A stretch of 64,000 nucleotides of DNA from Chlorobiota bacterium (GTDB taxonomy: Bacteria; Bacteroidota; Ignavibacteria; OLB7), in NCBI GenBank assembly GCA_016788565.1, contig JAEUSP010000073.1:1-64000 (forward strand), read 5' to 3'. Shown piece after piece: positions 3,000-59,142 of the stretch (position 1 is its first letter; each line of letters begins with the position of its first letter). Both the position numbers and the translations under genes were made by a program. The notes under the pieces were generated by a model that was given only the letters and a program-made list of their open reading frames with translations, made no database searches and was not told the DNA's origin.

Positions 3000-3115
3000 T
3001 ATACTCGGATGAAATTGGTTTGCGAAACTCTACTCAGCTAGGTGTGGTATGGATTCCCGCTTTCGCGGGAATGACAACGACTAGATTTTTCGCAAACCAT
3101 TCTGTTTGGAGTATA
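3000..3115. repeat. 116-bp palindromic element, copy 1
   Basis: The element begins TATACTC and ends GAGTATA. Inside are a second arm pair (GGTTTGCGAAA against TTTCGCAAACC) and a central perfect hairpin (ATTCCCGCTTTCGCGGGAAT, about 3053-3072). The same element, with the same length of 116 bp, recurs at 21020-21135. It carries no reading frame and looks like a non-autonomous MITE- or REP-type element. Its right end touches the 3' end of haaO (stop codon at 3117-3119). Confidence 0.85.
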
Positions 3116-3116
3116 T

Positions 3117-3644
3117 TTATGCGGCCAGCACTGGCGGCTGCATTACTGTGCCGCATTGTTTGCAGGTGCGTAATTCTTCATTTGCCCAAAATGCTTCCAT
3201 CACTGGTTTTAATTGTGTGGTGATGTCGATTAATGGGAAAAATGCTTCGTGCAGTTTATTGCTGCAATGTTCGCAGTACCATTGCAATCCATCTTGCTCA
3301 CCTTCGCGACGGCGGCGTTCCACCACCAAACCAATGGTGTTTGCTTTGCGTTGTGGCGAGTGTGGAACCCGCGGAGGAAGCAAGAAAATATCCCCTTCTT
3401 TTATTTCGATGTCGCGAATTACTCCATCTTCCACAATGCGAACCACAATATCCCCCTCTAACTGGTAAAACAATTCTTCCCCATCCTCAACGTGGAAATC
3501 CTTGCGAGCGTTTGGGCCGCCAACCACCATCACCATGAACTCTGGATGAACTTCTTTCCAGATTTGCTCGTTGCCAACGGGTGGCTTCAGTTTGTGGCGG
3601 TTTTCGTCAATCCATTGCTTCAGATTGAATGCGGTAAGTGCCAT
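3117..3644 (-). CDS. haaO: 3-hydroxyanthranilate 3,4-dioxygenase
   Basis: 175 residues, matching the short bacterial type of this cupin dioxygenase. The iron ligands are visible as His51, Glu57 and His95, in the segments DFHVEDGEELFYQ and PPRVPHSPQ. A second, rubredoxin-like metal site at the C-terminus has CEHC (Cys124 and Cys127) and CKQC (Cys161 and Cys164), as in the characterised bacterial enzymes. It opens the ring of 3-hydroxyanthranilate to give the ACMSD substrate. It lies between kynU and ACMSD, and the gap to ACMSD holds a palindromic repeat, so co-transcription is likely but not proven. Confidence 0.96.
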   Translation of the reverse strand: MALTAFNLKQWIDENRHKLKPPVGNEQIWKEVHPEFMVMVVGGPNARKDFHVEDGEELFYQLEGDIVVRIVEDGVIRDIEIKEGDIFLLPPRVPHSPQRKANTIGLVVERRRREGEQDGLQWYCEHCSNKLHEAFFPLIDITTQLKPVMEAFWANEELRTCKQCGTVMQPPVLAA

Positions 3645-9725: not shown

Positions 9726-9782
9726 AATGGGAAGAGTGAGATGGGAAGGATGCCAAGCCAAGCCCAGCACGAACGCCACCCT

Positions 9783-9828
9783 CCGCTCATGCTGAGCCCC
9801 GTCGAAGTATGAGCGTGAGCCGCCGGAC
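9783..9828 (+). repeat. Dispersed 45-bp palindrome, copy C
   Basis: This copy has the same orientation as copy A and ends GAGCCGCCGGAC instead of GAGCCACCGAAC. It lies between the UnbV gene and mobA. Confidence 0.88.
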
Positions 9829-9924
9829 TGCGCCGCTACTTGCCCTCACCCCCCCGCCCTCTCCCAAGCGGGTGAAAGTGCTGCTTGCCTCACATTTGTC
9901 AGATGGGCGAGGGAGCCAAAGTGA

Positions 9925-18213: not shown

Positions 18214-18897
18214 TTATTGCTGCGGGAACAGCGGCAGCGGTTTAGCGTTGAATAGCTTACGCCAGTTCTCTTCGATGACTACTCCACCAAGCAACTTCTC
18301 CCCTTTTGCTGAATCAACAGTTATGCGCCACTTCAATGGATCATACTTGAGAAATTTTTTTAAGTCATTTAATGATGGCTTTCGCTTGAAATAAGCAAAT
18401 GGTTGTTTGTTGCGGTATTCTATGCCGGGTCTATATTTTTTGAATGGCAGATCTGATAGAGCGCCGCCATTAAATGAGTGGCTATAATTTATGATGGGAT
18501 TATTCGGTGTTGATGCAAGATTTGACACGATCACGAACGACCATTTTTCGATATTGCTTTTTGAATACTTAATCGCATATAATCTACGAGTTAAGGTGTC
18601 ATTGTTCATACGTGATAAAGATTTAATATCTACCGAATACTGTGTTAATAGTATTAAGGATTTTTTGGATCCCTCACAGTATTGTATTACTTGCGTGAAA
18701 TAATCTGCGTATTTCAAAGGAACCGATGAACATTCAGTAAAATTTTCACACAAAGCATTGGAAATATTATCAACAAACAAGTCATCAGCATTGAGTTGAT
18801 GTAAAATCGATCTAGAGTTAACAGGATAAAAAATAAGCATTATTATTAAAAAAACACAATAGCAACGATTGAGAATTTCATTGTCCGTAGATTTCAT
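18214..18897 (-). CDS. AT-rich exported protein of unknown function (island gene 3)
   Basis: 227 residues, not recognised. A hydrophobic N-terminal segment (CYCVFLIIMLIFYPV, about residues 12-26) ends near SRS and looks like a signal peptide or anchor. The rest is mixed charged and polar, with several cysteines early (FTECSS, QYCEG) and a lysine-rich C-terminal half. It begins 2 bp after the stop of the preceding gene, so translation is almost certainly coupled. Codon use is AT-rich compared with the GC-rich neighbours on both sides, consistent with acquisition by transfer. Confidence 0.7.
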   Translation of the reverse strand: MKSTDNEILNRCYCVFLIIMLIFYPVNSRSILHQLNADDLFVDNISNALCENFTECSSVPLKYADYFTQVIQYCEGSKKSLILLTQYSVDIKSLSRMNNDTLTRRLYAIKYSKSNIEKWSFVIVSNLASTPNNPIINYSHSFNGGALSDLPFKKYRPGIEYRNKQPFAYFKRKPSLNDLKKFLKYDPLKWRITVDSAKGEKLLGGVVIEENWRKLFNAKPLPLFPQQ

Positions 18898-18899
18898 TA

Positions 18900-20087
18900 T
18901 TATTTTAATTTATTGTTGATATATTTATCCCGTTTCTTCTTTGCTGCTTTAGTGATTGACCAATCACTAAAGCCTCCTATTTCAGATTCAAAGATAACTT
19001 CTAATCTATCTTTATTATTATGAGATTTTTTGTTGTATTCATCCTTACTAAAAAATACGCCCCATGCTTCGTAAAACAGAACCCATTTGCCTAATGTAAT
19101 ATAGGCATTACCAGTCACTATTTGCCCCATTTTATTCATAATTGAGATGAATTGTTTGTTTGTCATATACCTTCCCGTAATTTGCCCAACAATACCTATA
19201 GCATCAATTATAGCACCGACTTCGTTATTTGTGCTTTTATCGCGGTCTTTGATTGAGCAATAATAAATCATAGCGAACAGTAGTTTTTCTAAATAGTCGA
19301 CAACGCTAGCATCGAAAGACATATCAACCATGATTTCTTTTGTAGATGGATTTATCCATATATCCATATCAATATATTTTGATTGTCCATCAAATCTATT
19401 AGCATCTCCACGATTATCTGGGTCTAAACAGCAAATCTTATTCTCTGCAAATGTTTCCGTCATACATTCCATAAGACCTTTATGTTTTGATAAATCACTG
19501 CGAATAGCTGATGAACGGCGCATAATGCCTTTATAAGCATCCTCTATCTTTTGCTGCTGTTCCTCCGAGCAGCAATTTTTCGTTCCTGCTACTGGCCCTG
19601 CCATGTTAATTTTGCAGCGACAGTATTCTAAAAATGGAAGAGGTTCTTCGATTTCTGAATCTTCATCTGTAGAGAGACCTGATGGCATTATGGGCCCCTC
19701 AGGATTATTAGGATATGGACTTCCTTGAGACGGGTCTAACTTAGAGTCATAGACCCTGCCTCTATACGGAGAAACTGGATCTAAAGGATTTGAAGACCTA
19801 CCATCATCTAACACATCAACAGTCACGCTTCCATCACCATGCCGAATAATGATTATTACCCCTCCGTCGCCTACGTCCGGTGGCAATATGCGCAGAAGTT
19901 CTACTTCTCCTTTCTCTTCCGGTAAAAAAGTTTCTGAAGAAGATGGCGTATGGGTAAATAAACCCAGTCTTGGGCCAAAATTAAATGGCTGGTAATAGTC
20001 GTCGGGTTCCATGATACGTACAAATGGTGTTGAATATGGTTCCAAGAGCGACTCACCATTCTTGGCGATAACGATGCCGTTGTCCAA
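18900..20087 (-). CDS. AT-rich cysteine-containing protein of unknown function (island gene 2)
   Basis: 395 residues from a TTG at 20087. An internal ATG at 20012 would give 370 residues, and the start is not settled. The first 130 residues are acidic and proline/glycine-rich with apparent low order. A cysteine-containing core follows: FLEYCRCK, KNCCSEE, LMECMTE and NKICCLD. The sequence around LEKLLFAMIYYCS has the spacing of helices that carry HExxH in some zincin-like toxin domains, but the metal-binding residues are absent here, so this is at most a weak resemblance. It lies between two other AT-rich genes, the downstream one starting 2 bp after its stop. Confidence 0.65.
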   Translation of the reverse strand: MDNGIVIAKNGESLLEPYSTPFVRIMEPDDYYQPFNFGPRLGLFTHTPSSSETFLPEEKGEVELLRILPPDVGDGGVIIIIRHGDGSVTVDVLDDGRSSNPLDPVSPYRGRVYDSKLDPSQGSPYPNNPEGPIMPSGLSTDEDSEIEEPLPFLEYCRCKINMAGPVAGTKNCCSEEQQQKIEDAYKGIMRRSSAIRSDLSKHKGLMECMTETFAENKICCLDPDNRGDANRFDGQSKYIDMDIWINPSTKEIMVDMSFDASVVDYLEKLLFAMIYYCSIKDRDKSTNNEVGAIIDAIGIVGQITGRYMTNKQFISIMNKMGQIVTGNAYITLGKWVLFYEAWGVFFSKDEYNKKSHNNKDRLEVIFESEIGGFSDWSITKAAKKKRDKYINNKLK

Positions 20088-21019: not shown

Positions 21020-21135
21020 TATACTCGGCGCAAATTGGTTTGCGAAACTCTACTCGGCTAGGTTCGCTATGGATTCCCGCTTTCGCGGGAATGACAGTGA
21101 TTGAGTTTTTCGCAAACCACTCTGTTTGGAGTATA
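21020..21135. repeat. 116-bp palindromic element, copy 2
   Basis: Same length and same arms as the copy at 3000-3115: it begins TATACTC, ends GAGTATA, and has the GGTTTGCGAAA/TTTCGCAAACC inner arms and the central ATTCCCGCTTTCGCGGGAAT hairpin. It sits just outside the AT-rich island, 48 bp from the right hairpin repeat. The two copies differ at scattered positions in the arms and loops. Confidence 0.85.
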
Positions 21136-58735: not shown

Positions 58736-59142
58736 TCATTGGTCATTAGTCATTGGCTATTGGCTATTGGTCGGTGGTTGGTTTTCTATTACTCCGTGCT
58801 TCAGCGCGGAGATTGCGTGCCACCTTACTTCCACTCTTCCGTTCCTTCTTGGCTTTGGCTCCCTCTCCCAGCCAGCGAATGTGAGGCAACCAGCACCTCC
58901 ACCCATTTGGGAGAGGGCGGGGGGTGAGGGCAGGCAGCGGCGGGGGCCCGGTTCGGTGGCTCACGCTCATACTTCGACGGAGCTTCAGCATGAGCGGCGG
59001 GCTACTTTCGTGGTTGGTTTGGCATCGTCCACTCTCCCCATCTCACTCTTCACCCCTCACTATTCACTCTTCAATCTTCCCTCAACTCCGTACATTTGCC
59101 CAGCGTTCAACCTATCTCACACAACCCAGAAACCGCTCAATC
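58736..59142. other. Gene-free repeat-rich stretch
   Basis: About 400 bp. It holds a tandem run of ATTGGTCATTAGTCATTGGC units (about 58731-58783), the GGCTCCCTCTC/CGAATGTGAGG module also seen near 6100-6140, a GAGAGGGCGGGGGGTGAGGG hairpin-like block and copy G of the palindrome. A long in-frame extension of the next gene passes through it but is translated repeat. Confidence 0.75.
58951..58997 (-). repeat. Dispersed 45-bp palindrome, copy G
   Basis: Same orientation as copies B and E. It reads CGACGGAGCTTCAGC where other copies read CGACGGGGCTCAGC, a variant with one extra base. The upstream shared segment GAGGGCAGGCAGCGGCGGGG resembles that before copy B. Confidence 0.88.

Follow-up and report, generated by a model that had tools for sequence, protein, structure and literature searches.

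What is the 116-bp palindrome that occurs twice within 64,000 nucleotides of a Chlorobiota genome, and by what route has it come to be repeated? The stretch analysed, called the window below, covers positions 1 to 64,000 of contig JAEUSP010000073.1. An earlier note, made from its letters alone, had described the palindrome as non-coding and as resembling a non-autonomous mobile element of the MITE/REP class. Our analysis points, with high confidence, to a non-autonomous transposon of the IS630 family (a MITE) that captured a CGTC-1 REP.

The two copies were found at exactly the positions first reported for them, with an equal length of 116 bp (Table 1). Both have the TATACTC/GAGTATA ends, the matching arms and the identical central hairpin ascribed to them, and share a 25-base core, GGATTCCCGCTTTCGCGGGAATGAC; in all, 102 of 116 positions are identical. 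The terminal repeats are imperfect and 28 bp long, with the structure TATACTC-N9-TGGTTTGCGAAA, and the two arms of copy 1 agree at 22/28 positions. Copy 1 indeed touches the 3' end of haaO. That copy 2 flanks an AT-rich island is true only loosely, as the island exists (18500-19500, GC 0.31-0.33 vs ~0.55 around it) but copy 2 lies 1-2 kb beyond it. Another repeat family is present in the window at 58846-59010 and 9779-9921, with ~82% similarity to the sequence beside the MITE copy of locus L035.

Table 1 Features of the two MITE copies and the neighbouring gene in the window
Feature	Position	Strand	Remarks
MITE copy 1, 'GGATG' subtype	3000..3115	+	116 bp
Copy 1, left terminal arm TATACTCGGATGAAATTGGTTTGCGAAA	3000..3027	+	Outermost TA derives from the target duplication (one of its two copies)
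Copy 1, embedded CGTC-1-type REP	3050..3076	-	TGTC tag, stem ATTCCCGC, loop GAAA, stem GCGGGAAT, tail CCA; defining features from PMC3733652
Copy 1, right terminal arm TATACTCCAAACAGAATGGTTTGCGAAA, minus-strand reading	3088..3115	-	
MITE copy 2, 'GGCGC' subtype	21020..21135	+	116 bp, 88% identity to copy 1
Copy 2, embedded CGTC-1-type REP, same as in copy 1	21070..21096	-	
haaO (3-hydroxyanthranilate dioxygenase), neighbour	3117..3644	-	PF06052, E 5e-64; stop codon 1 bp from copy 1

The description "present twice" holds for the window, but the genome-wide search for all copies that the earlier note had proposed lists at least 142 full-length elements (about 145). The arm pattern TATACTCN{4,14}GGTTTGCGAAA gave 207 exact matches in the 4.58-Mb assembly and none when reversed as a control. 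A covariance model built from 35 copies scored 150 candidates and returned 147 matches, from which 142 elements were listed. Among those listed, 86 are exactly 116 bp; there are minor size classes of 115, 125/126, 135-137 and 156/157 bp, the overall range is 101-157 bp, and the copies are, as had been proposed, non-coding, with terminal inverted repeats. Many are 97-100% identical to each other: copy 1 has three other copies in the genome at 100% identity and five more at 99%, and these four identical copies stand at unrelated sites. The MITE sits almost only between genes. By a simple, home-made gene prediction, 6 of 56 sites (one of the 56 being a copy in the relative G004) fall within a predicted gene, in several cases right where it begins, compared with 76% of random control points.

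Intergenic sites, often near gene ends, together with a very stable fold on both strands, would also suit a structured RNA or transcription terminator kept by selection and copied by some other route, a reading to which we give very little credence. The fold is far beyond chance (z of -5.7 and -8.3 for the two strands of copy 1, and -6.1 for copy 2), but compensatory change was seen in 0 of 30 pairs, and the Rfam search of the window returned rRNA and tRNA only. The alternative named in the earlier note, an RNA or operator conserved at equivalent places in many related genomes, found no support either: the sister species has few MITE copies, and these are at different sites. It should be noted that the MAG of this sister species (L157, L194; JADZEY010000086.1, JADZEY010000112.1) is labelled Armatimonadetes SJ842, whereas another MAG in this family carries the label Chlorobiota RYN_334. 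As these labels disagree, one is probably wrong, and the Armatimonadetes label is the probable mislabel.

Filled and empty sites decide the matter. When the two flanks of a copy were joined with a single TA and compared with the sister species, empty sites with a single TA were found for L037 (vs L057, CTCAA(T/C)-TA-ATTCTACTG) and L038 (vs L140, TAC-TA-ACACATGAATG). A near-identical empty site was found for L027:7564 (vs L142, GCCGCAGT-TA-TCAAC), where the empty side has TG at the place of the presumed TA. The converse case was also observed, with a sister-species copy at a TA that is empty in this genome. In addition, one copy (L027:12134-12249) is nested in another, between GTGAT and AGTTTT, and its target TA is present in other copies of the host element. 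The MITE has therefore moved, as its genome-wide copies and empty sites attest, and it inserts at TA and duplicates it; the target duplication, which the earlier note had suggested seeking at 2-9 bp, is thus a 2-bp TA. When 45 copies (42 in this genome and 3 in the sister species) were compared in their flanks, nothing consistent was found beyond the terminal TA, including among longer duplications of 3-10 bp. Copy 1 is flanked on each side by TTTATG, which other copies do not share and which we attribute to chance. For the two copies in the window, the sister species offers no clean empty site, since its genome differs at these places and synteny breaks. With empty orthologous sites, a nested insertion and identical copies at unrelated sites, a selected RNA or terminator is false as the main explanation; side effects of the MITE on neighbouring transcripts are possible.

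The central hairpin is an element of its own. CGTC-1 REPs are defined by a CGTC or TGTC tag, an 8-bp stem starting with AT, a 4-base loop and a CCA tail (Di Nocera et al. 2013, PMC3733652), and the core, read on the minus strand as TGTC-ATTCCCGC-GAAA-GCGGGAAT-CCA, has all of these. CGTC REPs are known from at least five phyla and are reported without a dedicated transposase, and the manner of their spread is open in the literature (PMC3733652). In this genome, 98 of the 100 intact exact REP cores listed lie inside a MITE copy, and hardly any REPs stand free of it. Across the genomes listed in our REP survey, related families of the class have the REP free and as head-to-head pairs, and a 104-bp element in the relative G004 shares the arms but lacks the REP. 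As there are REP-free MITEs with the same ends, and related families carry REP dimers on their own, we have here a nested composite in which the REP is the passenger and the IS630-type MITE the vehicle. Both terms of "MITE/REP class" thus apply, the first to the outer element and the second to the inner one. Judging by this distribution, a single capture of the REP, in this genus or its ancestor, is most likely, with REP and MITE multiplying together afterwards.

The presence of a true CGTC-1-type REP, and of one Y1_Tnp gene in the genome, could instead suggest a REP/BIME element whose mobility depends on a REP-associated tyrosine transposase of the IS200/IS605 class, the partner anticipated in the earlier note. 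This is highly improbable, since the 116-bp element moves as one unit, complete with its TA-bounded inverted repeats, and free REPs are as scarce here as described above; no transposase has been reported for CGTC REPs either (PMC3733652). The search for a Y1-type transposase with matching ends yielded only the one Y1_Tnp gene, which was rejected as the driver because its locus has neither the arms nor the hairpin and is surrounded instead by a different palindrome, CCCAGGGC..GCCCTGGG, present eight times. That locus (L061:1035-2580), with the sole Y1_Tnp gene amid eight copies of the palindrome CCCAGGGCnnnGCCCTGGG, looks like a separate REP-type array. The earlier reading, a miniature non-autonomous element served by a transposase encoded elsewhere, is borne out, but the expected IS200/IS605 or tyrosine partner gives way to another enzyme class: the target duplication is a 2-bp TA, and the ends match those of an IS630-family DDE transposon.

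This partner was recognized by its ends. Searching the MITE arms alone in 84,980 genomes gave matches in many Bacteroidota (Chitinophagaceae, Tannerellaceae, Prevotella, Hymenobacter, Saprospiraceae and Emticicia), many of which are short REP-free elements of about 90-120 bp. Another match is a complete 961-bp IS630-family transposon at L191:5055-6015 (MAG YP4.bin17), which has MITE-type arms at both ends (TATACTCAACTAAAAATGGTTTGCGAAA / TATACTAAAAAGCAAATAGTTTGCGGAA) and encodes a transposase matching DDE_3 (E 3.8e-32) and NCBIfam IS630 (E 3.3e-46). The IS630 elements of the family members G002-G004, and those of G005 and G033, were considered as partners and set aside, as their ends differ. 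Phages, plasmids and viral contigs were searched for the MITE or its arms, with no match.

A multicopy IS630-family transposon with related ends is present in this genome, in broken form, and in the sister species. No intact IS630 transposase is assembled here, and a DDE_3 search of the contigs was empty. With a chimeric IS630 query, however, contigs C35, C36, C78 and C105 were found to open with the C-terminus, and C30 to hold a remnant. The starts of these four contigs share an identical 140-141 bp with the arm ...CTGGTTTGAGTATA at the end, followed by differing flanks. Contigs C10 and C47 start with another stretch of 141 bp, identical in both, which contains the beginning of an open frame (the putative N-terminal end) and terminates in the arm TATACTCCAAATAAATTGGAATGCGAAA (read outward-in). 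By length, ends and position, the C10/C47 left ends and the four right-end contigs would belong to one element, and we read these breaks as a multicopy IS630 transposon that interrupted the assembly at each of its copies. The domain search would then be empty because the copies are broken at contig ends. In the sister species, about 30 contig ends have IS630 termini of the forms TATACTC-N9-GAGTTTGCGAAA and TATACTC-N9-CAGATTGCGAAA, and the N-terminal fragment from this species hits the same winged-HTH Pfam families as the L191 enzyme.

Outside TATACTC, the IS630 ends share 13-16 of 21 positions with the MITE arms, a level equalled by 1 to 227 of 100,000 shuffles; the best contig-break end of this genome reaches 16/21 (1/100,000 shuffles), while several IS630 ends have a modest identity of 13-14/21. 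This partial identity, and the lack of an intact assembled transposase, would be compatible with a MITE that is old and now dead, the contig-break IS630 copies being an unrelated later invader with similar ends. We regard this as unlikely, since many MITE copies, the nested one included, are 97-100% identical, and the two arm blocks are equally spaced in REP-free MITEs across Bacteroidota and in IS630 elements from three genomes.

The longer size classes arise from two insertions inside the REP: module A (about 20 bp, CGCTTCGCAGGCCTTCGGC) on its 5' side and module B (21 bp, CCCGACTGGTCGGGGTAAACA) on its 3' side. Elements with neither module, with A, with B and with both were all found, on differing arm subtypes, and such combinations require either that copies exchanged modules or that modules were gained and lost repeatedly. 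B-like palindromes (CCCCGACNNGTCGGGG) also follow CGC in another repeat (GTCATCGC...), so module B is itself a repeat. Neither module was found inside the REPs of viral contigs, where the bare REP, by contrast, does occur. Other combinations of ends and passengers were also seen. In two other genomes (L020:1416-1595 and L023:1481-1602), a different inverted-repeat element with TAGTGTCTCAGTTT... ends encloses a head-to-head CGTC-type REP dimer; the L020 element is TA-bounded and has an IS630 fragment some 1 kb away. At L081:2042-2300 (G000:C47:12541) and L255:36-400, the MITE arms enclose another passenger, namely a GTCATCGCGAGGAG...CTCCTCGCGATGAC-type palindrome.

For the IS630-type MITE, the following route can be proposed. 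The IS630 transposase, an HTH and DDE enzyme, would bind the common arms at TATACTC and the TGGTTTGCGAAA block, cut the MITE out beside the flanking TA and paste it into another TA, and the REP in the loop would be copied along as a passenger.

Elements of this kind are already known, the closest being RUP of Streptococcus pneumoniae; the nesting and the scale are new. RUP (107 bp, 108-110 copies) is about the same in size and copy number, targets TA, lies between genes and has inverted repeats resembling those of the resident IS630-Spn1, but the two papers on it describe no REP or other independent repeat inside it (PMC2229807, PMC3049150). The Correia/NEMIS elements of Neisseria are also MITEs with TA ends, of 107 or 155 bp, whose size classes depend on an internal block; their arms differ, however, and no REP core is described (PMC2229807). 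The tag (here the TGTC variant), 8-bp AT-starting stem, 4-base loop and CCA tail of the hairpin are shared with CGTC-1 REPs including Neisseria dRS3, which are mostly free head-to-head dimers, whereas here single units occupy a fixed place in a transposon (PMC3733652). Parallels in architecture are GTAG-15 REP dimers inside TATAGGA...TCCTATA palindromes in Anabaena variabilis and CGTC-1 REP dimers inside 41-bp palindromes in Halothiobacillus neapolitanus. For those outer palindromes no transposase or target duplication was named (PMC3733652), while here they are shown or strongly indicated.

These results also expose a practical trap, as a domain search can miss a multicopy autonomous element whose copies have broken the assembly. 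It is conceivable, though we hold it only tentatively, that CGTC REPs generally spread by hitch-hiking inside IS630-type MITEs and that short palindromes are layered (hairpin module in REP, REP in MITE, MITE in MITE), with modules exchanged between copies. Here, carriage by the MITE would account for more than 130 copies of a REP class reported without a transposase of its own. MITEs without the REP, with the REP, and with the REP plus extra hairpin modules form a natural comparison series, and the vehicle can be named, an IS630-type MITE carrying a REP, which provides a testable route for REP amplification.
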